DNA from: Prochlorococcus marinus str. MIT 0919
Lineage (GTDB): Bacteria > Cyanobacteriota > Cyanobacteriia > PCC-6307 > Cyanobiaceae
Length of the DNA stretch: 64,000 bases
Assembly: GCF_027359375.1 (NCBI RefSeq)
Contig: NZ_CP114779.1
Span: 620,001 to 684,000 of the forward strand
Direction: 5' to 3'
Part shown: positions 48,163-60,245 of the stretch, piece by piece
Numbering within the stretch: position 1 is the first letter of the stretch
Layout of the letters: each line of letters begins with the position of its first letter
Notes under the pieces: generated by a model
Told to the model about the DNA's origin: nothing
Databases searched by the model: none
Seen by the model: only the letters and a program-made list of their open reading frames with translations
Translations under genes and position numbers: made by a program

Positions 48163-49266
48163 ATGAATCTACTGGACACATTTAAAGATAAAAAAGTTGT
48201 TATTACTGGTCATACTGGCTTTAAGGGTTCATGGCTTTCTATATGGCTTTTATCTCTTGGTGCAGAAGTACATGGTATAGCTCTAGAACCACCTACTAAT
48301 CCATCTCTATTTAAAGAAGCATTAATTGAAAGTAGGATTAGCGATAATAGGATAAATGTTAAAGACCAAGATAAATTAATTAAATTAATAGATCATGTCA
48401 AACCTGATTATTTATTTCACCTTGCTGCCCAGCCATTAGTCAAGCAGTCATACATAGATCCAGTAGAGACTTGGCATACTAATGTTTTGGGTACAGTAAA
48501 TATTCTAAATACACTTAGGCTTATAAACAATAGATGCATCGCTATCATAATTACTAGTGATAAATGCTATGACAATAGAGAATGGGTTTGGGGCTATAGA
48601 GAAACAGACAAGCTAGGTGGTTCTGATCCATATAGTTCTTCAAAAGGCTCAGCAGAAATTGCGTTTAAATCCTTCTATAGTTCATATTTCAACAAAGAAG
48701 ATAGTAATGTCCTAATTGCATCAGCAAGGGCTGGCAATGTTATAGGAGGGGGAGACTGGGCTAAAGATAGAATTGTCCCAGACTGTATTAGATCTTGGAC
48801 AAGGAATAACATAGTTTCAATCCGAGCACCACATTCAACAAGACCATGGCAACATGTTCTTGAACCCCTGAGTGGTTACTTGTGCTTAGCACAGGAATTA
48901 TCTAAACAAAAAGAGCTTAATGGGGAATCTTTTAATTTTGGTCCAAGTTCAAGCAATAACTATTCAGTAATTGAACTAGTAAAGAAGCTTTCTATAGTAT
49001 GGCCAGAACAAAGATGGGAATTAATCGGTAATAATAATAATTCAAAGGAGCACGAATCAGGACTTTTAAAACTTAATTGCGACAAAGCACATGCACAGTT
49101 AGGCTGGATGCCTACTCTTGACTTTAGTTCAACAATAGAATATACAGGTTCTTGGTATTATGATTTTTATTCAAAATCTCAAGAAACAGAACCTTATAAC
49201 CTCTGTCTTCATCAAATCAATTCATACACAAACTTATCAAGAGAGGTAGGTAATCAATGGATTTAG
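48163..49266 (+). CDS. rfbG: CDP-glucose 4,6-dehydratase
   Basis: 367 aa extended SDR. The N-terminus DTFKDKKVVITGHTGFKGSWLSIWLLSLGA is diagnostic of RfbG ('v.vTGHtGFKGsWL...L'). FHLAAQPLVKQSYIDPVETW and ITSDKCYDNREWVWGYRETDKLGGSDPYSSSKGSAE contain the active-site residues (Asp/Lys/Tyr-Lys). It converts CDP-D-glucose to CDP-4-keto-6-deoxy-D-glucose. It is the first gene of a five-gene forward operon with overlapping ends; its last codons overlap the RmlC-like cupin by 10 bases. Confidence 0.95.
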   Translation: MNLLDTFKDKKVVITGHTGFKGSWLSIWLLSLGAEVHGIALEPPTNPSLFKEALIESRISDNRINVKDQDKLIKLIDHVKPDYLFHLAAQPLVKQSYIDPVETWHTNVLGTVNILNTLRLINNRCIAIIITSDKCYDNREWVWGYRETDKLGGSDPYSSSKGSAEIAFKSFYSSYFNKEDSNVLIASARAGNVIGGGDWAKDRIVPDCIRSWTRNNIVSIRAPHSTRPWQHVLEPLSGYLCLAQELSKQKELNGESFNFGPSSSNNYSVIELVKKLSIVWPEQRWELIGNNNNSKEHESGLLKLNCDKAHAQLGWMPTLDFSSTIEYTGSWYYDFYSKSQETEPYNLCLHQINSYTNLSREVGNQWI

Positions 49267-49688
49267 AAAAGCAGAATGTATCCAGAGTGCAATTGAGGAG
49301 AATAGCTGTAGAAGGTGGGGATGTGCTACATATATTAAAGTCAACTGATAAACAATACAAGGGGTTCAAAGAAGCCTATTTCTCAGTAATTGAGCAAGGT
49401 AGAACAAAAGCATGGAAAAGACATTTAAATATGACTATGAACATTGTTGCTCCAGTTGGATCTGTACAGTTTATACTTTACGATAAAGATTTGAAATTAA
49501 TTTTAAATACTGTTATAGGAGAAAAAGAATACTATTTACTTACTGTACCTCCTGGAATATGGTTTGGATTCAGAGGCCTTTCAAAAAAAGATAGCTATAT
49601 ACTTAATATAGCTAACGTTCTTCATGACCCTAATGAAGTAGAACGCCAGCCGTTATCCTTCTTGAATTTCTTAGAGGTGGAAAAATGA
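49257..49688 (+). CDS. RmlC-like cupin, probable CDP-hexulose 3,5-epimerase-type protein
   Basis: 143 aa, shorter than the 180-190 aa of standard RmlC. The cupin core reads EAYFSVIEQGRTKAWKRHLNMTMNIVAPVGSVQFILYD with the likely catalytic His in KRHLNMT, then KEYYLLTVPPGIWFGFRGLSKKDSYILNIANVLHDPNEVER, which mirrors the 'iPpgfaHGF..l.....v.y.....y.p.....' ending of dTDP-4-dehydrorhamnose 3,5-epimerases. Between rfbG and rfbF, it probably epimerises the CDP-4-keto-6-deoxyhexose. Overlaps: 10 bases with rfbG, 4 bases (ATGA) with rfbF. Confidence 0.75.
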   Translation: MDLEKQNVSRVQLRRIAVEGGDVLHILKSTDKQYKGFKEAYFSVIEQGRTKAWKRHLNMTMNIVAPVGSVQFILYDKDLKLILNTVIGEKEYYLLTVPPGIWFGFRGLSKKDSYILNIANVLHDPNEVERQPLSFLNFLEVEK

Positions 49689-50446
49689 AAGTAGTAATTC
49701 TTGCTGGTGGATTTGGTACAAGGTTATCGGAATACACATCCATAATACCAAAGCCAATGTTGAGGATAGGTGATAAACCAATAATTGAACATATCATGAA
49801 TATATATTCAAAATTTGGTTTAAATGATTTTTATCTAGCTTTAGGTTATAAAGCTGAAGTTGTAAAAGATTATTTTTATAAATATCAAATATTAAACTCT
49901 GACTTCAAAGTTGACTTAAGAAATGGAAGTATAAAACCATATCAAAGACATTCTCCAAATTGGTCTGTTAGTTTAATTGACACAGGGAAAGATACTATGA
50001 CAGGAGGAAGACTGCTGCGACTTAAAGAGTATATAAAAGATGAAACATTTCTTCTAACCTATGGTGATGCTGTTACAGATTTAAATATAAATAATGTTTT
50101 AAATTATCACAAGAAACATGGTAAATTAATAACTGTAACCGCTGTTAGACCTACAGCTAGATTTGGAGAACTAAAGATTTCCAAAGATAATAGTGTATCA
50201 AGCTTTAGGGAGAAACCTCAGCTTATGGAAGGTTGGATTAATGGCGGATACTTTGTAATAGAACCGGAATTTCTAGATTACATATCAAATGACCAAACAA
50301 TACTAGAGAAAGAACCTCTAGAGAAAGCAGCAAGTGATTCTCAATTAATGGCCTATCTGCATGAAGGTTATTGGCATTGTGTAGATACCAAAAGGGATAA
50401 AGATACACTTGATGATCTTGTCAAATCAGGCAGGCAACCATGGTAG
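49685..50446 (+). CDS. rfbF: Glucose-1-phosphate cytidylyltransferase
   Basis: 253 aa nucleotidyltransferase. The N-terminus KVVILAGGFGTRLSEYTSIIPKPMLRIGDKPIIEHIM is the RfbF signature, with the 'GGfGTRL...t...PKPM..iG..Pi..hiM' pattern that distinguishes CTP-using enzymes from RmlA. Further blocks are FLLTYGDAVTDLNI (metal-binding Asp) and EGWINGGYFVIEPEFLDYI. It makes CDP-glucose from CTP and glucose-1-phosphate. It starts inside the stop of the cupin gene (ATGA) and overlaps the next SDR by 7 bases. Confidence 0.97.
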   Translation: MKVVILAGGFGTRLSEYTSIIPKPMLRIGDKPIIEHIMNIYSKFGLNDFYLALGYKAEVVKDYFYKYQILNSDFKVDLRNGSIKPYQRHSPNWSVSLIDTGKDTMTGGRLLRLKEYIKDETFLLTYGDAVTDLNINNVLNYHKKHGKLITVTAVRPTARFGELKISKDNSVSSFREKPQLMEGWINGGYFVIEPEFLDYISNDQTILEKEPLEKAASDSQLMAYLHEGYWHCVDTKRDKDTLDDLVKSGRQPW

Positions 50447-51363
50447 CTAAGGCAAAAGTTCTAATTACTGGAGGCTCTGGCTTCATTGGCTCACATCTTG
50501 TAAAGGTGCTAATAGATTGTGGGTATGATGTAATAAGTATTTCAAGAACAAAGCCGAATAAAATTCGAGCTGTCAAAAAAGCTCATTATATAGAACATAA
50601 TATTAGAAAAGAAATTACTAAAGATATAGAAAAGAAGATTGAATCTGTAGAATATATAATCAACTGTTCTGGATACGTAGATCATACAAGTTTTAAAGAT
50701 GGGGGTAAGTCAGTATTTAAAGATCATTATAATATCCCAATGAAATTGATAGATTTAAGTAGGTTAGTTAATTTAAGAACATTTGTTCACCTTGGCTCAA
50801 GTGATGAGTATGGTAACCTCCAATCCCCAATCAGTGAAGATGTTAGAGAATGTCCTATATCACCATATTCGCTAGGCAAGTTGACAGCCACTCATTTCCT
50901 ACAGCAAATGTTTAGACTATATAAAATCCCTATTATAGTTTTACGTCCTTTTATAGTATTTGGTGAAAACCAAGAAACAAATCGTTTTTTACCTTATTTA
51001 ATAAGTAATTGTTTAGCGTCAAACACTTTTGGTGTAACAGAAGGGGGTCAATTAAGAGATTATTGCTATGTAGGTGATGTGTGCAATGCAATATTAAAAT
51101 GCTTTGATAATAATAAGGCCTACGGACAAGTTATAAATATAGGCTCTGGGGAGCCTGTTAGTATTAAAACATTAACTAATAGTGTAGTAAATATAATCGG
51201 TTCAGGAAAACCTTGTTTTGGAGAAGTTCCTTATAGGGAGTCTGAAAGCATGGCTTTATATCCAAATATAATAAAAGCCAAAAGTCTACTTAAATGGGAA
51301 CCAACTAATGAGATGAATAAAAATCTAAACAAAGTTATTAATTGGTATAAGGAATATGCTTAA
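50440..51363 (+). CDS. NAD(P)-dependent SDR, probable CDP-4-keto-6-deoxyhexose reductase/epimerase
   Basis: 307 aa extended SDR. The cofactor motif is VLITGGSGFIGSHLVKVLIDCGYDV. The active site has VHLGSSDEYG and CPISPYSLGKLTATHFL (YxxxK), then RPFIVFGENQETNRFLPYLI. The position right after rfbF and the relation to CDP-abequose/paratose synthase-type proteins suggest reduction of the C4 keto group of the CDP sugar. No RfbH/E1 dehydrase is in the operon, so the product should be a 6-deoxy rather than a 3,6-dideoxy sugar. It overlaps both neighbours (7 and 8 bases). Confidence 0.85.
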   Translation: MVAKAKVLITGGSGFIGSHLVKVLIDCGYDVISISRTKPNKIRAVKKAHYIEHNIRKEITKDIEKKIESVEYIINCSGYVDHTSFKDGGKSVFKDHYNIPMKLIDLSRLVNLRTFVHLGSSDEYGNLQSPISEDVRECPISPYSLGKLTATHFLQQMFRLYKIPIIVLRPFIVFGENQETNRFLPYLISNCLASNTFGVTEGGQLRDYCYVGDVCNAILKCFDNNKAYGQVINIGSGEPVSIKTLTNSVVNIIGSGKPCFGEVPYRESESMALYPNIIKAKSLLKWEPTNEMNKNLNKVINWYKEYA

Positions 51364-52273
51364 TAAACCATTAGTTAGCATTTTAATGAACTGCCTTAAT
51401 GGCGAAAAGTATTTAGAGGAAGCGATAGAAAGTGTTCTTAGGCAAAGTTACAAACATTGGGAGGTTATATTCTGGGACAATAATTCAATCGATAATTCTA
51501 GGGCAATAATTATGCAATATAAAGACGAAAGGATAAGGTACTTCCATTCATTGAATAAAACAAATTTGGGTAAAGCAAGACAAGACGCATTCAATAAAAT
51601 AAAAGGCGAATTCCTCTGCGTATTAGATGTAGATGATACTTGGAGGAAGAATAAATTAAGTGAGCAATTACATTTTTTCGAAAATGAAAGGGTTGGGATA
51701 TGTTATTCTAATAGTGAGTTTTTTAGCTATAAGAATAAGGAAAATCTATATCCCAAAGATATTGTGATGAAAGATAGTTGTTCTAAATTGATAACGAACT
51801 ATCATATATCGCTTGAGACAGTCATGTTGAGGGTAAAATATATAAGAGAATTAGAAAAATCATTTGATGAAAATTACAGTCATATATCAGATTTCGATCT
51901 AATTACAAGATTATCAACAAGGTGTGGAATCGCCTACTGCCCGAAAGTATTAGCTTGTTGGCGGATACATGAAGGAAGTGAAGGGTATACAAAACCTCAA
52001 TTATTTAATGCCGAGAAGTTATTATGGATAAAGAATAATAAGGAGAGCAAGTATTTTAGTAAAGTGGATCGTGCTATTTATGAATTGGAGAAGCTCGTTC
52101 ATGCTAGTAAAAGAATGTACATTAAAAAGCAATATAATAATTTTTTCAAAGACATTACTTTTAGTTATAGTAATGCGAGAAATTTGTTTTATGTATTATT
52201 CTCTTATATTCCAATTTTAACTATATTAGCAATGAAAATAAAGAATACTATGTATAAAGCAAAGTGGTTCTGA
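51356..52273 (+). CDS. GT2 family glycosyltransferase
   Basis: 305 aa GT-A fold. Motifs: VSILMNCLNGEKYLEEAIESVLRQSYKHWEVIFWDNNSIDNS, then GEFLCVLDVDDTWRKNKL with the DVDD (DxD-type) metal site, and HISDFDLITRLSTRCG near the acceptor site. The C-terminus has a hydrophobic stretch (LFYVLFSYIPILTILAMKI) that could attach it to the membrane. As the last gene of the CDP-sugar operon, it likely transfers the CDP-activated deoxy sugar to a growing glycan. It overlaps the SDR gene by 8 bases. Confidence 0.9.
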   Translation: MLNKPLVSILMNCLNGEKYLEEAIESVLRQSYKHWEVIFWDNNSIDNSRAIIMQYKDERIRYFHSLNKTNLGKARQDAFNKIKGEFLCVLDVDDTWRKNKLSEQLHFFENERVGICYSNSEFFSYKNKENLYPKDIVMKDSCSKLITNYHISLETVMLRVKYIRELEKSFDENYSHISDFDLITRLSTRCGIAYCPKVLACWRIHEGSEGYTKPQLFNAEKLLWIKNNKESKYFSKVDRAIYELEKLVHASKRMYIKKQYNNFFKDITFSYSNARNLFYVLFSYIPILTILAMKIKNTMYKAKWF

Positions 52274-52292: not shown

Positions 52293-53897
52293 TTATAAAA
52301 CCTTAAGGTTAACACTATTAATATTAATAGCTTGAATCTGGGGATTGTGTAAATAGGATGTCCTTATAGCAATTACATTTGATCCAAGGGAAATAGCTGA
52401 GTTTACATATGAAGAATTTCCAAAAATACAATTTCTACTTAATTTAATTGATTCAAATATTGTCTCTCCTGCTTTATCAATAAAGGTAATTCTTGGTATT
52501 TTTATATTGTATTCATGATAAAATCTATAAAATTGATTTATTGCCTCCACTCGATTTACAGTAGGATGCAATCGGACAAAGAGATTGCTTACAGACAAAA
52601 TTTCTTCGTAAAGATGATAAGTAGAGCGATTTTTATATATCCTTAATAAGATAATATAGATTTCATTATGATCATTGTGAGAAAATATTGTAAAATCTCT
52701 ACCTGAAGTAATACTATCTAAATAACTTTTTTTATTATAAGTTATATCAGTTCTATTCAAAGAATCACGTACAACACTAATTTTATATTTCTTGCTTGAA
52801 AATAGACTTTTCATTTCAGAAGCGGAATTGATATCTTGATGCATAAAATTGTTATTGCACCATAAACCCATGGCTAGTTCAAAGTTAGTAGGTACAAATT
52901 GTGGTAATGCGTTCTTGGAAAATATTGATCCATAATATGTATAGACTTTAACGCAAGGATTGATCTTAGTTATGTTCTTATAAAGGCCTAAAGATAAGGA
53001 TTTATGACTTAGTTGATTCTCATGCCAAAGGAAAATATTTTGTAAGTTTGATACTTTTAAAATATCTGCAGATATTTTATAATTCAATAATGCTATAAAT
53101 CGCTGGTTAATATATTTATAAGAATTTATTATGCTTACTATTGTTCCATAAGTAAACTTGGGGGAGCAAGTAAGCTCAAATAAGTATAGCCTTGCTAGAT
53201 CTATTAAAGTAGAAAATATTTGTAATGGAGAAATAAAGTCCAAAGACGTGTGAACATCGTCATAAGTATTGATAGCCAAAAAGCCTAGGATATTAAAGCG
53301 GTATTGAAAAAATGAGGTTACTAAAGTGGCCCTGGAAGTTTCCTTGTCATAGTCTGGATAATAGTATTTAATTGATTTATACTTTTTTTTCCTCCAATAA
53401 AATATAGTGTAAAGCTCCTCAAAAAGAATAGTTTTATTATTAGCTTTTCGTTTTATATAGTTCCGTAAAATTCCAATGTAAAATAAGGCATATATAAATA
53501 TAAATACAAAATCTAGAATTGAAATCAATAAATGAATCAAAAACTTTAATATGCTAATAAAAATATACTTAAGATAATAAGCAGATGGCAATTGACCTTG
53601 CGAAAAGAAAATACCAATTGAATAAGCTATCTTTTGTTTATTTGAAAGCGAAGATAATAAATCTTTGCCTAATAACTTATTGTAAAATCCTAATAAAAAA
53701 ATAGTATCTAAATTAGTTGTGTCAAGAAAATAAACATCTCTATCCGTCATAAACGAAAGTAAATATATTGGGGACTTATGATATATATTCTTTCTAGCAA
53801 AATTACCTATATCTCTTATTCTTGATAAAATATTAAATAGAGTATTAGCATCATCAAATGAGAATGAGGAAGGGAATTTACTTCTTAATATTTTCAT
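52293..53897 (-). CDS. Unknown protein, possible GT-B-type surface glycosyltransferase
   Basis: 534 aa with no clearly recognised family. A hydrophobic region around residues 115-150 (FLIHLLISILDFVFIFIYALFYIGI) is probably a membrane anchor. The C-terminal third has features seen in GT-B capsule/polysialyltransferase-like enzymes: IFLWHENQLSHKSL, NLFVRLHPTVNR and NCIFGNSSYVNSAISLGSNVIAI ('..g.sSs....a...g..vi.i'), which would form the nucleotide-sugar site. It is the last gene of the reverse-strand operon with the CMP-sugar synthetase (53-base gap after the LdpA-like gene). A role as the transferase using the CMP-activated sugar is an inference from position. Confidence 0.5.
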   Translation of the reverse strand: MKILRSKFPSSFSFDDANTLFNILSRIRDIGNFARKNIYHKSPIYLLSFMTDRDVYFLDTTNLDTIFLLGFYNKLLGKDLLSSLSNKQKIAYSIGIFFSQGQLPSAYYLKYIFISILKFLIHLLISILDFVFIFIYALFYIGILRNYIKRKANNKTILFEELYTIFYWRKKKYKSIKYYYPDYDKETSRATLVTSFFQYRFNILGFLAINTYDDVHTSLDFISPLQIFSTLIDLARLYLFELTCSPKFTYGTIVSIINSYKYINQRFIALLNYKISADILKVSNLQNIFLWHENQLSHKSLSLGLYKNITKINPCVKVYTYYGSIFSKNALPQFVPTNFELAMGLWCNNNFMHQDINSASEMKSLFSSKKYKISVVRDSLNRTDITYNKKSYLDSITSGRDFTIFSHNDHNEIYIILLRIYKNRSTYHLYEEILSVSNLFVRLHPTVNRVEAINQFYRFYHEYNIKIPRITFIDKAGETIFESIKLSRNCIFGNSSYVNSAISLGSNVIAIRTSYLHNPQIQAININSVNLKVL

Positions 53898-53950
53898 TAA
53901 GTAGATTTGTGAGAGAAGTTAATAATTAAAACGTATAAGATTGGTATACA

Positions 53951-54997
53951 TTATTTATTGAATGAGGGTATAAGTCGAGAAGGTCTTAGATTATTTTCAA
54001 TTAAATTATATGCATTCATAACTGCCTCATTTAAATGCATGTTAGTCTCTCTTAATGTAATTAAATCAAGTTCAGTTTTAACAATTTTCCTTGCATGTGT
54101 GCCTATACTTATGCCAGAAAATGATACGCCACATTGTCGAGCTAATTGACCTGTTAAGCTATTGGTTCCTCCTGAGATAAGTAATGGCAAGTCTTTGAAT
54201 CTTTTATCTTTTAATATTAATTCCTTATTGATTATATCTGCTATTGATACAGCCTGTAATGTCGTATTAAAATCATCCTTATTTCCACCCATAGCAACAC
54301 CATCGGCTTGGATGATAAGTCTATCATCAGCTATATCCTTGGCTAATTTTATCCTTTCCATTAAATGGTTATTTGTCATATGTGTACGATCTAAACACAT
54401 CGATAGCATTCCATTAGGCAAACAATTACATACTGTCTTCCATTCTTTAATTGTAGTAATATCATCTGCTATTGATGCATGTAGCTCTATACTTTCTGCA
54501 CCTGCTTCTATACATAAAGGTAAGACTTGTTCAATCTTTTTAGAATCATATCGATAGTGAACTGCTTCAACAGATGGAGGGCATGCTGATTCACAGTTAC
54601 CGCAACCAATGCATAAATGGTCATAAACCTCTAAAGATGATGGAATTGCATTAGTCGGGCACGCTGGAATACATGAATTACATCTTATGCAATCATTAGT
54701 AATCACTGCTTTGCGAACATGGTGATCGCCTGGCATGCCAACACTCACAGTTATAAAAGGAGGATCATTCTCATCGGAAAAATAAGGGTTCTTAGAAGAA
54801 AGAGCTGCGTCAATCCCTTGTCTACAAGCTTTTACAACAAGAGGGTTTGCAGATAAGTCAAATCCCTTACAACCCGCAAGTGTATATACATAAGATAGTT
54901 TACTGACTTTATCTAAATCCTCATAACCTGCTCCACAAACCAACTTAAAAAATAAAGAATTAGAAAGAATTTCCTTATACCTAGAGAATCTATCCAT
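53951..54997 (-). CDS. LdpA-family di-[4Fe-4S] protein
   Basis: About 348 aa from ATG 54997; a TTG at 55009 would add four residues. The N-terminal FKLVCGAGYEDLDKVSKLSYVYTLAGCKGFDLSANPLVV closely follows the start of cyanobacterial LdpA (light-dependent period protein). Two ferredoxin-type clusters follow, numbered from the TTG: Cys107, 110, 113, 117 in CIRCNSCIPACPTNAI and Cys133, 136, 139, 143 in CIGCGNCESACPP. The C-terminal part has LLISGGTNSLTGQLARQCG and SGISIGTHARKIV as in LdpA. Authentic LdpA is a redox-sensing input of the Kai clock. Here it is inside a sugar operon, 25 bases after the HAD phosphatase gene, so it is probably a paralog with a metabolic redox role. This is not verified. 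Confidence 0.8.
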   Translation of the reverse strand: MDRFSRYKEILSNSLFFKLVCGAGYEDLDKVSKLSYVYTLAGCKGFDLSANPLVVKACRQGIDAALSSKNPYFSDENDPPFITVSVGMPGDHHVRKAVITNDCIRCNSCIPACPTNAIPSSLEVYDHLCIGCGNCESACPPSVEAVHYRYDSKKIEQVLPLCIEAGAESIELHASIADDITTIKEWKTVCNCLPNGMLSMCLDRTHMTNNHLMERIKLAKDIADDRLIIQADGVAMGGNKDDFNTTLQAVSIADIINKELILKDKRFKDLPLLISGGTNSLTGQLARQCGVSFSGISIGTHARKIVKTELDLITLRETNMHLNEAVMNAYNLIENNLRPSRLIPSFNK

Positions 54998-55034
54998 AAT
55001 GTTATTCAACCATTTTTATATTATCGAGCTATAT

Positions 55035-55706
55035 TCAAAGTGGCAAAGAATTTAATAGTTCAGAAACTTGGCCAATTATAGGGATTGAATTATTGATACA
55101 GTATGACTTATAATCCTTGAAGTCTGTCCAGTTACTAATAAAGATAAAATCAAGGCCATTTTCTAGCGCAACTTGATGGTCAAGTCTACTATCACCTAGG
55201 AAAAGAGCTGGCAAATTAAGAGTCCCTTTTGAGATTTCTCTTGTTAAAATCTTATTTTTAGTATCTGGACTGCCATATATACCTCCATCGAACAATTTAA
55301 ATAACTTGTTAGCTACAAAAATCTCTCTAAGTTCTTCTTCCGCCCCTCCGGAAACTATAAACCAACTTTTATCCTTAGTGAATTCTCGTAAAAGTCCTAA
55401 TTTAGATGCAACCTCTGCCTTAAATAGATATTTCTTACATTCTTTACTATAAATATCAACAAGCTCTTCTAAATTTGGACCATTTTTCAAAGATGAGTAT
55501 TTAGGAGCTATAACAGAGAGAAAGTAATCAAATTTCTTATATCTAGAAACACCTCCATTTAATTGATGGTAATCTATTAACCTATCTATTGATTCCTTAC
55601 CATAGGGCTGAAGTGCTTTTCTAAAGCAATCAGTTTTAATAAAATTAGAATTTAGTAAAACACCATCGCAGTCAAATACAATTGATCTATATCTATCAAG
55701 TAACAT
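55035..55706 (-). CDS. HAD-superfamily phosphatase
   Basis: 223 aa class IA HAD hydrolase. The nucleophile motif is IVFDCDGVLLNSN (DxD), motif II WFIVSGGAEEEL, Lys motif YGSPDTKNKIL, and motif IV LFLGDSRLDHQVALENG. The helical cap between motifs I and II indicates a small-molecule phosphatase. It is coupled to the kdsB-like gene by a TAATG overlap and likely removes a phosphate from the sugar acid made by the operon aldolase, analogous to KdsC or to the 9-phosphatase of nonulosonate pathways. Substrate is inferred. Confidence 0.85.
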   Translation of the reverse strand: MLLDRYRSIVFDCDGVLLNSNFIKTDCFRKALQPYGKESIDRLIDYHQLNGGVSRYKKFDYFLSVIAPKYSSLKNGPNLEELVDIYSKECKKYLFKAEVASKLGLLREFTKDKSWFIVSGGAEEELREIFVANKLFKLFDGGIYGSPDTKNKILTREISKGTLNLPALFLGDSRLDHQVALENGLDFIFISNWTDFKDYKSYCINNSIPIIGQVSELLNSLPL

Positions 55707-56443
55707 TATTTAAAAATTTGTGATAATTGTTGCTCAACAAGTGGAATATCTGAGGGTACATCTACTGCTAAGGATGAGTATTTTGTATGAAACATCTTGA
55801 TCTTAATTCCTAATTCAAAAAATCTAAGAATTTCTATATCTTCTTTACTTTCTAAATAACTCTTTCTTCCAAAAGAAAGAAATCTATCTAAGTCAACAGG
55901 GGAATAAGCATATATACAAACTTGCTTCTTATACTGATCACTTTTTAATATTTGCTTTTTATTAGCCGGTATTAAAGATCTTGACATATATAGCAAAGTA
56001 TTATCCTCTGAAACAACGACTTTAGGTATATTTATATTCTCAGGTTGTTCATCTTGTCTAATATTATTATAGCAATTGATAACGCTTTCATAATGAGATT
56101 TCTTAAAATTTATTGCACGCAATATATCTGTCTCATTAACTAGGGGTTCATCTCCTTGAACATTTACAAAAATATCATAATCTAAATCCTTAGCTGCCTC
56201 TGCTACACGGTCTGTACCTGTTAAAAGGTTAGAACTTGTAAAGATAGAATTATATCCTGATTCATTAACTAATTTTGCAATACGGTTATCATCGGTAGCT
56301 ATATAAACATCTTCTTTTCCTATAGCTCTAGCGGAAAGCTCTGCTACCCAAATAATTAAAGGTTTTCCATTTAATTGGACAAGGGGCTTGCCAGGAAACC
56401 TGGTTGAGTTATACCTAGCTGGGATTATTACGCATGCTTTCAT
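55706..56443 (-). CDS. KdsB-type CMP-3-deoxy-ulosonic acid synthetase
   Basis: 245 aa, the normal length of KdsB. Motifs: VIIPARYNSTRFPGKPLVQLNGKPLI (CTP loop), YIATDDNRIAKLVNESGY, LTGTDRVAEAA and FVNVQGDEPLVNETDI. These define the 3-deoxy-manno-octulosonate cytidylyltransferase family. It would activate a 2-keto-3-deoxy sugar acid as its CMP derivative. Marine picocyanobacterial LPS is reported to lack Kdo, so the true substrate may be another ulosonic acid. It starts 3 bases after the aldolase-fusion stop and ends with a TAATG overlap onto the HAD gene, giving a tight operon. Confidence 0.9.
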   Translation of the reverse strand: MKACVIIPARYNSTRFPGKPLVQLNGKPLIIWVAELSARAIGKEDVYIATDDNRIAKLVNESGYNSIFTSSNLLTGTDRVAEAAKDLDYDIFVNVQGDEPLVNETDILRAINFKKSHYESVINCYNNIRQDEQPENINIPKVVVSEDNTLLYMSRSLIPANKKQILKSDQYKKQVCIYAYSPVDLDRFLSFGRKSYLESKEDIEILRFFELGIKIKMFHTKYSSLAVDVPSDIPLVEQQLSQIFK

Positions 56444-56446
56444 AGC

Positions 56447-58063
56447 TTAAATACCATAGACACTTTGAATCATTAGATTTTTATATTTAGAAGGTGTAAT
56501 AGCTATAAGTTCTACTTTAGGCTGATATTTTTTATAAACTTCTAATAATTGATTGATTTCATCATTACGAGTATCTCCCGAAGCATAACCATCAAATCCT
56601 GCTAAATAGATTTTCTTTGCCCCTCCACTAGTGGCGATTGCCAAAGCATATGAAATAACTAATGAATTGGGTATAAAGCAATATTTATCATGAAACTCAA
56701 AACCTTCCTGGGAAATACCTATACCATAATCTAAAACTTCCTTTTTATGTAATAAAGAAGAGAAGTCTAAAGGGAGCATTGAAAGAGGAACAACAAGTGG
56801 TTGTGGTAAATGTAAATGAGAGGTGAGATCTGCCAACAACCTTGTAGGGTGACTGGCTACTCTTAAATCTATCAAATCATTATTGATCAATGTCTGAGTA
56901 TTCATTGCAAGAACAACTGGCTGAAAGCGAGATATAAAAGATTCGACAGCCTTTAGATGTAATTGTAATTTAGACCCAGTACCTAAGAGCAAAACATCTT
57001 TACCTTTAAAATATAACGAAGGAGACCAAGAGCCCTTAGGTTTATTGTTATAGAACTTTCTAGTATCATTTAAGCTTGTAAAGTTAAATTTTTTGCCACC
57101 CTGATCACGAAGATAATTAATAGAAGCTAAAATATCTTCTTCTTGGTAACGGTAATCTGAAAGCATCGATTGAATATAAGATGGGTGAATAGAGTATTTG
57201 CCTGCTAGGTAATAAAAAGGATTGGTACCCCAAGAGTGTTTTGCTTTTAGAGGTAAAAATTCTTTATTAATTAATTTCAACAATGGAACATAATTCGTTT
57301 GTCGACCGAATCGAGAATTCAACTCTAATATCAACTCTTCCGTTTTTGCATTACCAGGACCTCTTCCAATACCAGTTATTGTTGAATCTACCCAATCTAC
57401 CCCTTCTTTAATTGCTTGAAGAGTATTGGAAAGGGCTAGTCCTTGGTTGTCATGAGCATGAATTCCTATTTGTCCTTTCCAATAAAGCTTGAAAGAAGAG
57501 ATGATGTTCTTAATTTGATCTGGCTTAATAGAACCCAAGCTGTCCGCAAAGTACAAAACATCAACGCAAGAGCTAGATAAATACTTGCCAATTTGTTCTA
57601 TATCTTGATTAGTTTGATCTGATATCTGAGTGATATTGCAACCTGTTTTATAACCTGCTTCATGTAAATACTCAAAAGCTGGCTTAACACAATGAATGGA
57701 GTCAGCTGGACAAGCAATCCTAATCAAATCGACTGGTGAGTCTTTACAAGCTGCTGGAACAAGTTTATTTAACCTTGTGAAACTGAAATTGTTATCTGGG
57801 ATCAAATCAGCTGCATTAATCATTACAGCTATTCCTATAGAATCGGGAATTGATAAAGAAGACAAGAAGTCGTCTGTCGTGAAAGCACATGCACCCTTGA
57901 AGCTATTATTATCAAAATATCTAAACCCTATTTCGCAAAAGTCTATAGATATAGCATCCAAAGCACTCAAGTAGTTGTTTATTAAGTATTCAGAGAAATC
58001 CCATTTTGTATAATAACCTCCATCTCTAAATGTACAGTCTAAATGTATTATCTTTTTTTCCAT
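56447..58063 (-). CDS. DRE-TIM aldolase (HMGL-like) fused to a C-terminal Rossmann-like domain
   Basis: 538 aa in two parts. Residues 1 to about 255 are an HMGL/4-hydroxy-2-oxovalerate aldolase-type barrel: LDCTFRDGGYY (RDGG metal/substrate motif), DSLGSIKPDQI, GIHAHDNQGLALSNTL (His202 and His204 metal ligands) and GIGRGPGNAKTEEL. Residues about 255-345 match the small helical domain of DmpG-type aldolases. Residues about 350-538 form a separate domain with VLLLGTGSKLQLHLKAVESFI and SGGAKKIYLAGFDGY, resembling the DUF115/MptE-like or GT42 fold ('aialGf..iyl.GiD.y'). The barrel would join pyruvate or another 2-oxoacid with an aldehyde; the second domain could be a transferase or binding module. 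First gene of the reverse-strand operon. Confidence 0.75.
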   Translation of the reverse strand: MEKKIIHLDCTFRDGGYYTKWDFSEYLINNYLSALDAISIDFCEIGFRYFDNNSFKGACAFTTDDFLSSLSIPDSIGIAVMINAADLIPDNNFSFTRLNKLVPAACKDSPVDLIRIACPADSIHCVKPAFEYLHEAGYKTGCNITQISDQTNQDIEQIGKYLSSSCVDVLYFADSLGSIKPDQIKNIISSFKLYWKGQIGIHAHDNQGLALSNTLQAIKEGVDWVDSTITGIGRGPGNAKTEELILELNSRFGRQTNYVPLLKLINKEFLPLKAKHSWGTNPFYYLAGKYSIHPSYIQSMLSDYRYQEEDILASINYLRDQGGKKFNFTSLNDTRKFYNNKPKGSWSPSLYFKGKDVLLLGTGSKLQLHLKAVESFISRFQPVVLAMNTQTLINNDLIDLRVASHPTRLLADLTSHLHLPQPLVVPLSMLPLDFSSLLHKKEVLDYGIGISQEGFEFHDKYCFIPNSLVISYALAIATSGGAKKIYLAGFDGYASGDTRNDEINQLLEVYKKYQPKVELIAITPSKYKNLMIQSVYGI

Positions 58064-58280: not shown

Positions 58281-59981
58281 TTAGGAATAAAATTTATTTT
58301 TTGATAATTTACCTATCCCAGAATTAAAAGAATTGGTTGGATCTATCTTTTTATAAAAATTAGAAAGGTCGTATTCAGCAAAATAGAGATGACCTACATT
58401 ATGCTCTGCTGGGTATTTTGCTCCTAAAGAATCTAATTTTGCAAGAATTACTTTTTTCTGTTCATCAAAGTCCTCTGTATTAGATAAAATTAAATCCCAA
58501 TGAAAGACCATACAAAGAAAATGTCCCATACGAAAAGACTCTAATATTCCAGTTGAATTATTATCTGTTATTATTCGATCCCAATCAGTACAGTTCCTGG
58601 GTAGTGCAACATCTAATGGTAAAAGATTAGCAGGTATATTGTTATTTATAATCATAAAACGTTTTGGCGCAATTCCTGCTACGTATCTATGCAAAAGTAA
58701 ATCTTGACCTTCCACCTTTAAGCATTCATGATAATCAAATTCTTTATTCTTACTTTCTAAAAAAGAAAGCATCTCTCTAGTTTCTTCTATACATTTATCA
58801 CCTGCCTTAATTATTAGGATGTGATCAAATAGCCGTCTATATTCTCTTGCAATCTTAGGAAGGTGATCAGGCAATAATTGTGCATGGTCATGAAGAAAAT
58901 TATCTACAAAGTTAGATGCATCTAAATTTAACGAAGAGAAAAATACCTCTATTTTTTTCTTTATTCCAAATAATTTAGGAATAAAGCCACGGCCAAGGTA
59001 TTTAATTATTAGAAATGTGTCTTTACCATATTTAGATGCTGCATCAAAAAAGCTTTTATGCATATATTCAACCATTTCAGGCAAGTCTTCAAAACTAGTA
59101 AGTACATAGTTCCTGAGCTCACTGAAATTCTTAGAATCATTTGTTCCAATCAAAAACACCTGCTCTTTTCGAGGCTTAACGAAAGTATCTAAACGTGCAG
59201 CAAAAACTGCCACTTTACCTGCACAGCCACTAGATTCATACAATCTTCTTCTATCTGAATTATATCTTGCTGGCAAAGAAGATTTAACATCTCTTATTCT
59301 TTCACTATATTCAATATCTGATGCTTTCATTTTAGATTCTTGTAGGTCATGTTGGTTGAAATTTATGTTTTCTAGATTAGATAATATTTCCTCAGGGGTA
59401 TTGCCAAGTTCAATATCTAAATGATTTATTAATTCTAATTTTCCCTTGGAATTAACTCTAGCAAAAAGAGATAATTCAGTATAGGCTGGGCCTCTGTTAA
59501 CCAAATTACCCCCTGAATTATTACATATTCCTCCCACTATTGATGCCCCAATACATGAAGAGCCTATTAATGAATGGGGCTCACGGTTATAATTTGACAA
59601 GGTTTCTTCTAACTCAAATAAAGTTGCGCCAGGAAAGGCTAATACTTGCAAACCGTTATTCAAGATAATGATCCTGTCTAAACGCAAAGTATTTATAATT
59701 ACAACATCACGGTCATATTTATCACCATCAGGTGTGGAACCACCTGTCAAGCCAGTATTGGCTGCTTGGATAATAATTATCTTGTCCAAAGAAATGCATA
59801 ACTTGAGCACCTCCCAAAATTCAATAAGATCTTTAGGTAAAACAACACAATTTGCCTTGCCTTCTCCTACTCTAATTCCTTGTCTATAACTTTTTGTTGC
59901 CTTTTCACCTATAAGTAAGTTCTTCTTACCAACAATTTTTTTTAGGCCTTGGTTTAATTCAGTCAGTCGGTCATTCCTCAT
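58281..59981 (-). CDS. dld: FAD-dependent D-lactate dehydrogenase (quinone), Dld
   Basis: About 566 aa from ATG 59981, which has AGAGG upstream; a TTG at 60005 is less likely. The FAD/PCMH domain shows IIQAANTGLTGGSTPDGDKYDRDVVIINTLRLD and FPGATLFELEETL ... GSSCIGASIVGGICNNSGGNL. The C-terminal membrane-binding domain contains LLPLDVALPRNCTDW, characteristic of E. coli-type Dld. It oxidises D-lactate or a related D-2-hydroxyacid to the 2-oxoacid and passes electrons to quinone. It lies 217 bases upstream of the aldolase operon on the same strand; pyruvate produced here could feed the aldolase. Confidence 0.9.
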   Translation of the reverse strand: MRNDRLTELNQGLKKIVGKKNLLIGEKATKSYRQGIRVGEGKANCVVLPKDLIEFWEVLKLCISLDKIIIIQAANTGLTGGSTPDGDKYDRDVVIINTLRLDRIIILNNGLQVLAFPGATLFELEETLSNYNREPHSLIGSSCIGASIVGGICNNSGGNLVNRGPAYTELSLFARVNSKGKLELINHLDIELGNTPEEILSNLENINFNQHDLQESKMKASDIEYSERIRDVKSSLPARYNSDRRRLYESSGCAGKVAVFAARLDTFVKPRKEQVFLIGTNDSKNFSELRNYVLTSFEDLPEMVEYMHKSFFDAASKYGKDTFLIIKYLGRGFIPKLFGIKKKIEVFFSSLNLDASNFVDNFLHDHAQLLPDHLPKIAREYRRLFDHILIIKAGDKCIEETREMLSFLESKNKEFDYHECLKVEGQDLLLHRYVAGIAPKRFMIINNNIPANLLPLDVALPRNCTDWDRIITDNNSTGILESFRMGHFLCMVFHWDLILSNTEDFDEQKKVILAKLDSLGAKYPAEHNVGHLYFAEYDLSNFYKKIDPTNSFNSGIGKLSKNKFYS

Positions 59982-60245
59982 ATGTCTAAACCTCTGAGAT
60001 TTCAATATTAAGCTTTTAATTCTTATTATTACTACAATGCTTTAATACTTATTAATGTAGAAAAGTCAAGTAAACTATCAGCATAAAATTATGGCATGGT
60101 TTATATTCTTACAAGTTAATGGTGCCCCGCTATACAATTTATTAGATTGCTAAGTATAGATCTATAGTGTTTTTTCAACGTAGGTAAGTGAACAATACAT
60201 CAAGCTAAGGTTCTTTTATAAAAGATTAGTTCCAATCAAACAAAA

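Follow-up and report, generated by a model that had tools for sequence, protein, structure and literature searches.

A widespread aldolase, cytidylyltransferase and phosphatase polysaccharide module in Prochlorococcus marinus that likely makes an ulosonic acid other than Kdo

A compact set of five genes lies on the reverse strand of Prochlorococcus marinus str. MIT 0919, in a 64,000-nucleotide stretch (contig NZ_CP114779.1; G000:C1:620001-684000, G000 being this complete genome of 1,716,770 bases) that was analysed as a whole and is called the window here. The operon begins with the gene for an aldolase fusion protein, ALD, and continues with genes for a synthetase of the KdsB type, a HAD phosphatase, an Fe-S protein and a putative transferase; judged from families and predicted folds, it probably makes, activates with cytidine monophosphate (CMP) and transfers an acidic sugar. 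In window coordinates the features are:

56447-58063, reverse strand: ALD, an HMGL-like (DRE-TIM) aldolase with a Maf/GT42-like C-terminal domain, 538 aa
57044-58063, reverse strand: N-terminal aldolase domain of ALD, residues ~1-340, from alignment to 1nvm and 3dxi
56450-57031, reverse strand: C-terminal domain of ALD, residues 345-538, with the predicted fold of Maf glycosyltransferases, GT42 sialyltransferases and MptE
55706-56443, reverse strand: KdsB-type CMP-ulosonate synthetase of an aldolase-linked clade, 245 aa, from families, tree and subfamily residues
55035-55706, reverse strand: HAD-superfamily phosphatase, 223 aa, from family matches and motifs
53951-55009, reverse strand: LdpA-family Fe-S protein of a non-canonical subfamily, 352 aa, TTG start
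54572-54706, reverse strand: eight-cysteine 2x[4Fe-4S] ferredoxin-like insertion in the Fe-S protein, residues 102-146, from Fer4 matches
52293-53897, reverse strand: putative CMP-ulosonate transferase, 534 aa, no family match
52296-53429, reverse strand: predicted GT-B fold of the transferase, residues 157-534, from a six-sequence AlphaFold2 model

From ALD to the transferase gene the spacings are 3 bases, a 1-base stop/start overlap (TAATG), 25 bases and 53 bases; calling of open reading frames (ORFs) reproduced exactly the coordinates and spacings that a preliminary description of this DNA had given for five consecutive reverse-strand genes. The segment is AT-rich (GC 0.27-0.34 vs ~0.38-0.40 nearby), and polysaccharide islands in the Prochlorococcus group tend towards AT-richness. 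A search for the five-gene order in other genomes found it again in a second member of the genus, Prochlorococcus AG-402-G22 (G001), which has all five genes in identical order with both flanks kept: one has the D-lactate dehydrogenase gene, lexA and argF, the other the same glycosyltransferase/CDP-sugar genes.

The first three genes travel much further than the operon. Scanning 84,980 genomes for ALD returned at least 572 confirmed relatives, and the best 80, full length or nearly so and 42-68% identical, were analysed; they come from Gamma-, Alpha- and other Proteobacteria, Campylobacterota, Bacillota, Bacteroidota, Candidatus Microthrix, SAR86, Pelagibacteraceae and Prochlorococcus. Both a cytidylyltransferase gene and a HAD gene stand beside ALD in 61 of the 78 analysable loci among these (several of the others stop at contig edges), in hosts that include Halomonas, Marinobacter, Pseudomonas, Pelagibacteraceae, Bacillus and Lewinella. 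In 59 loci the cytidylyltransferase gene comes directly 3' of ALD, the median gap being -1 base; 40 of these enzymes are of the KdsB type and 19 are PseF/NeuA-like. A phylum-wide scan found full-length ALD relatives in four more cyanobacterial genomes, each with an adjoining cytidylyltransferase and HAD gene.

The association also extends to viral sequences, where 12 of 15 contigs (several near-identical) encode the aldolase domain and a KdsB-type enzyme in one reading frame. Glycosyltransferase and MptE-like genes surround the fusion in these phage contigs (L067-L076, L078, L080). In annotated phage genomes ALD had no homologue over most of its length, and the Fe-S protein and the transferase had none at all.

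The aldolase-KdsB-HAD linkage is thus conserved far outside this strain, in several phyla and, as aldolase-KdsB fusions, in phage contigs, and its recurrence across phyla, together with that of the five-gene order and flanks in a second Prochlorococcus, indicates that the arrangement is not due to chance. A low-GC polysaccharide region with high gene turnover could bring unrelated genes together, so that a catabolic aldolase, a stray phosphatase and a stray cytidylyltransferase are merely adjacent; conservation across several phyla, overlapping genes and gene fusions make this very improbable, and for ALD, the cytidylyltransferase and the HAD enzyme they refute it, a scope that excludes the Fe-S protein. 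Elsewhere the neighbours of the three genes include those for an O-antigen ligase/polymerase (Wzy/WaaL), a flippase (Wzx), an ABC exporter and glycosyltransferases, which places the genes in a surface-polysaccharide context, and we conclude that the core of ALD, cytidylyltransferase and HAD enzyme is a widely exchanged polysaccharide module. The preliminary description had singled out the operon as a candidate new system; the logic it gave is supported in outline, whereas the system is peculiar neither to the window nor to cyanobacteria, being a widespread module instead. No published description of the module was found in the open-access literature, subscription journals not being covered.

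ALD matches PF00682 (HMGL-like; 2.7e-25, 89.7 bits), and in the alignment to 1nvm and 3dxi its R13, D14, H202 and H204 fall on the catalytic Arg and metal ligands of DmpG-type aldolases, the roles of which are established for DmpG/BphI; these four residues and Y17 are invariant in 65 of 65 sequences. The family match and the Arg/metal-ligand set together place ALD among the DRE-TIM metallolyases. The closest solved structure is 3dxi (243 bits), a "putative aldolase" of the PDB that shares the RDGGYYTNW motif but consists of the aldolase domain alone and has no assigned function, whereas ALD carries an extra C-terminal domain; 4-hydroxy-2-oxovalerate aldolases follow. With DmpG, MhpE and BphI, ALD has in common the DRE-TIM fold, the catalytic Arg and the Asp/His/His metal ligands; it differs from them in falling below the equivalog cut-offs (TIGR03217, 93.9 vs 229 bits; NF006049, 83.2 vs 286), in having Tyr for the catalytic His, in its additional domain and in belonging to a non-catabolic operon.

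The DRE-TIM superfamily also holds isopropylmalate, homocitrate and citramalate synthases, and the loss of the general-base His in favour of Tyr17 would suit such chemistry: ALD might then be a Claisen-type enzyme (isopropylmalate/homocitrate synthase-like) or a lyase, and some other carboxylate, branched or chain-extended, would be CMP-activated. We regard this as improbable, since 4-hydroxy-2-oxovalerate aldolases outscore the Claisen enzymes against ALD (94 vs at most 60 bits), and since unrelated HpcH/HpaI aldolases fill the ALD slot of another genome and occur in some other clusters, pointing to aldol chemistry. That genome is G002, of the same genus, in which the corresponding locus (L193, G002:C1:1162001-1180000), between the same glycosyltransferase and D-lactate dehydrogenase genes, is without ALD and has instead several HpcH/HpaI-family aldolases, a KdsB-type gene, a different HAD gene, the Fe-S gene and the gene for the operon's putative transferase. 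An unrelated aldolase family in this slot is expected if the job is pyruvate addition. Class II pyruvate aldolases yield a 4-hydroxy-2-oxo acid, which with a sugar aldehyde as acceptor is a 3-deoxy-2-ulosonic acid.

The C-terminal domain of ALD, modelled with AlphaFold2 at a pLDDT of 95.7, aligns in VIA-align with the Maf structure 5mu5 at Z 15.1 (181 residues), with MptE 8sd5 at Z 12.3 and with CstII 1ro8 at Z 11.7. This is the fold common to Maf flagellin glycosyltransferases, GT42 sialyltransferases (CstII) and MptE; sequence similarity to them is near the noise limit (PF01973 matches weakly, in 3 of 65 members), and in ALD, unlike in those proteins, the domain is fused to an aldolase. Since Maf and CstII act on CMP-nonulosonates and MptE is a pyrophosphokinase, the modelled fold makes a CMP-sugar role likely for the domain. 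The idea that it is unrelated to glycosyltransfer was dropped in view of the fold match. What had been called simply an "aldolase fusion" can now be named, from sequence families and predicted fold, as a class II pyruvate-aldolase-type domain joined to a Maf/GT42-like domain.

The synthetase matches PF02348 (3.3e-42, 145 bits) and scores 265 bits against NF009905 (cut-off 255); with its intact nucleotide-site residues it belongs to the CTP_transf_3/KdsB superfamily of CMP-ulosonate synthetases. In a maximum-likelihood tree of 71 rows it sits in a 40-row aldolase-linked clade (support 100/99). E. coli KdsB groups in a clade of its own (100/95) with the unlinked copies from genomes that have the module, so that the synthetase stands apart from genuine enzymes of 3-deoxy-D-manno-oct-2-ulosonic acid (Kdo) synthesis, and the aldolase-linkage label needs 2 changes on the tree vs 16 in shuffles. 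Beside the 40-row clade is a smaller aldolase-linked group (Bacillus, Methylobacillus, Pseudomonas BMS12 and others; 99/97), with which the G002 enzyme is placed. In E. coli KdsB numbering, the nucleotide- and metal-site residues R10, S13, R15, K19, R78, Q98, D100 and D235 are invariant in both the Kdo and the aldolase-linked enzymes, and 13 positions differ systematically between them, 11 of these in the C-terminal half (among them A124N, R164K, H181Q, G183C, Y187F and Q211I). The C-terminal domain of KdsB binds Kdo and forms the dimer (PMC3149649). The separate clade and the changes in the sugar-binding domain suggest that the sugar of the window enzyme is probably an ulosonic acid other than Kdo.

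The HAD protein matches HAD_2 (1.4e-06) and has the DxD, Ser-Gly-Gly, Lys and GDxxxD motifs; it has no match to the KdsC model, its matches being to HAD_2/PGMB-type models. CMP-activated ulosonic acids are produced by KdsA/KdsC/KdsB or by NeuB/phosphatase/NeuA, and the operon resembles the CMP-Kdo pathway (KdsD-KdsA-KdsC-KdsB) in its succession of C-C bond formation, dephosphorylation, CMP activation by a KdsB-family enzyme and transfer to a surface glycan. It differs from that pathway in having a pyruvate-aldolase-type enzyme where KdsA is dependent on phosphoenolpyruvate (PEP), in a HAD enzyme of another type, in a KdsB of a separate clade with an altered sugar domain, and in a genome without KdsA and KdsD. 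The genome of the window has no TIGR01362 match, the model of the KdsA-type Kdo 8-phosphate synthase, and for the SIS-type D-arabinose 5-phosphate isomerase (KdsD/KpsF) it has only a 36-bit partial match in a 482-aa frame (model positions 173-266; cut-off 203.7). The combination that would have spoken for Kdo, a KdsB grouped with genuine Kdo enzymes and a kdsA elsewhere in the genome, did not appear: kdsA is absent and KdsB stands apart.

These results bear on the explanation nearest to hand, that the product is ordinary CMP-Kdo, reached through a different first step, with ALD joining pyruvate and D-arabinose 5-phosphate, the HAD enzyme acting as Kdo 8-phosphate phosphatase, the KdsB-type enzyme as CMP-Kdo synthetase and the glycosyltransferase as Kdo transferase. 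The order of steps would be logically alike, the synthetase does exceed the NF009905 cut-off, and there is no kdsA to supply Kdo otherwise. We nevertheless hold it unlikely, given the position of the synthetase outside the genuine KdsB clade and its sugar-domain changes R164K, H181Q, G183C and Q211I. No isomerase of the KpsF/KdsD type scores over the cut-off in G000, G001, G403 or Rossellomorea. Moreover, kdsA is over its cut-off in 22 of the 26 genomes examined, most of the Gram-negative ones having two KdsB-family genes, with a separate KdsB beside the true kdsA; hosts that already have kdsA and a second KdsB do not use the module as their Kdo route. Rossellomorea, a Gram-positive, has a single KdsB-family gene and no kdsA over the cut-off. 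Lipopolysaccharide (LPS) of marine Synechococcus is without Kdo (PMC4515613), with which a sugar other than Kdo agrees.

The 534-aa protein gave no family match in profile searches and no match in a PDB sequence search. An AlphaFold2 model from six sequences (pLDDT 77, pTM 0.79) has a helical N-terminal part followed by the GT-B fold, with KpsC (a beta-Kdo transferase; Z 8.8) and a polysialyltransferase (Z 8.4) among the top matches, tied with UDP-sugar GT-B enzymes. Compared with the GT-B CMP-sialic/Kdo transferase families GT38, GT52, GT99 and GT107, the protein has an HP motif at H444-P445 and an SS motif at S495-S496; in the six sequences RLHP never varies and GNSS is largely kept. In sialyl- and Kdo-transferases the leaving phosphate is protonated by the HP histidine (PMC9587256). 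The earlier label of putative transferase gains a predicted GT-B fold with HP and SS motifs, while the fold resembles other GT-B enzymes at similar Z.

Together, the conserved linkage, the separation of KdsB from the Kdo clade and the absence of kdsA support in outline the preliminary reading of the operon as a CMP-ulosonate pathway, for which we infer the following chemistry. From its family and motifs, the N-terminal half of ALD would act as a metal-dependent class II aldolase that joins pyruvate enolate with an aldose or its phosphate to form a 4-hydroxy-2-oxo acid, that is, a 3-deoxy-2-ulosonate or its phosphate, from which the HAD enzyme would take off the phosphate. The KdsB-type enzyme, whose family and nucleotide site are evident and whose sugar pocket is altered relative to Kdo enzymes, would convert the acid into its CMP-ulosonate, and the GT-B protein, which shares the HP and SS motifs of sialyl- and Kdo-transferases, would attach the sugar to a glycan of the cell surface. 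For the Maf/GT42-like half of ALD, binding of CMP or a CMP-sugar is probable; it could be a second transferase or could link synthesis with activation. On balance the operon's likely product, which it would also activate and transfer, is an acidic 3-deoxy-2-ulosonic acid different from Kdo.

Several observations weigh against this assignment. The position of the DmpG general base, His21, is Tyr17 in every ALD member, and the reaction could therefore differ. About a third of the modules have a PseF/NeuA-like cytidylyltransferase, so that the products may not all be the same, and some modules hold an HpcH/HpaI aldolase beside ALD (L083:5437-6213, L123:9599-10360 and ~six other loci), which is not needed if ALD alone makes the product. 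The transferase assignment depends on a six-sequence model with middling Z values of ~8-9, and the scheme does not account for the Fe-S protein.

We also considered a CMP-activated phosphonate (Pnt-type) pathway in which the aldolase-type enzyme extends a phosphonate skeleton. In bacteria, phosphonates are commonly activated by nucleotidylation (PMC6697681), and a PEP mutase is one of 64 downstream neighbours of the module elsewhere. There is no PEP mutase in the window genome or in five others searched (G001, G403 and two Gram-positive hosts among them), and a KdsB-family synthetase with a HAD enzyme suits a sugar; the reading, hardly probable at all, was dropped on the negative result in these six genomes.

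The nonulosonic acid pathways (NeuB/NeuA, PseI/PseF, LegI/LegF) are another comparison: they too give a CMP-activated acidic ulosonic acid, many modules have a PseF/NeuA-like cytidylyltransferase, and the Maf/GT42-type fold is shared. They differ from the module, in which no dedicated nucleotide-sugar precursor genes recur; none of the five operon genes encodes a NeuB-family PEP-dependent synthase. NeuB-like genes do occur elsewhere in the genome. Just outside the window, at G000:C1:605472-613725 (L037:5472-13725), are two NeuB-like and two NeuA-like genes, an aminotransferase gene and other sugar genes. This is a separate sialic/legionaminic-type acid cluster, and, given its presence, the CMP-ulosonates of this streamlined genome may be of more than one kind.

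The Fe-S protein matches 4Fe-4S and LdpA_C models (PF12617, 2.1e-07) and scores 119 bits against NF045992 (cut-off 450), making it a relative of LdpA rather than LdpA. All eight ferredoxin cysteines are invariant in 19 sequences of the family, and in a PDB search the best 60 of 95 matches were confined to the ferredoxin part. It has in common with LdpA, the cyanobacterial clock-input Fe-S protein, the LdpA_C domain and an inserted eight-cysteine ferredoxin motif; it differs in being 27-30% identical to the LdpA-type proteins of relatives and in its operon with sugar genes. LdpA-type proteins (288-316 bits) are found in the picocyanobacterial relatives G012, G005, G403 and G231, whereas G000, G001, G002, G477 and G487 have none and carry the operon paralogue instead, which may have replaced it there. 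Besides Prochlorococcus, the gene has ALD nearby in Candidatus Microthrix (L121), in seven deep-branching members of the window's phylum and on one viral contig. Its absence from most modules sets it outside the core: the preliminary description was right that the locus adds an Fe-S protein, but by its distribution this is a lineage-specific accessory with a putative redox role. In Prochlorococcus AG-363-C20 (L194:11400-12269) a second, shorter paralogue (289 aa, 32% identity) follows the first.

Two sets of neighbouring genes keep their place beside the operon. A quinone-type D-lactate dehydrogenase gene (58281-60005, same strand; 765 bits to NF008387) lies 217 bases upstream, a position kept in G001 and G002; it could supply pyruvate to the operon or be a mere neighbour. 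On the opposite strand, 48163-52273 holds genes of CDP-sugar type (4,6-dehydratase, nucleotidyltransferase, epimerase, GT2), beside the operon also in G001 and G002.

Two types of PEP-dependent synthase serve to make Kdo and the sialic-acid family, and it is by these synthases that genome annotation recognizes such sugars. The module may, and we put this forward tentatively, stand for a third, undescribed class of CMP-ulosonate pathway that uses a pyruvate aldolase in place of a PEP-dependent synthase, in marine and soil bacteria and in phages, and leads to at least one uncatalogued acidic sugar; ALD, a single polypeptide, would serve both its start (aldol addition) and its end (through a Maf/GT42-type CMP-sugar domain). 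A module that skips the PEP-dependent synthases would mean that many bacteria have acidic surface sugars hidden from current annotation. Its genes are at present annotated (for example in Leisingera) as "aldolase catalytic domain-containing protein", "KdsB" and "HAD hydrolase", and, judging by the tree, many proteins that now carry a Kdo-enzyme annotation probably do not deserve it. Reconstitution of the pathway should be easy, since one protein acting on a cheap substrate, pyruvate, provides the first committed step. For Prochlorococcus, whose close relatives reportedly have Kdo-free LPS, the sugar could bear on phage receptors, and the phage contigs with a fused aldolase-synthetase make that testable.

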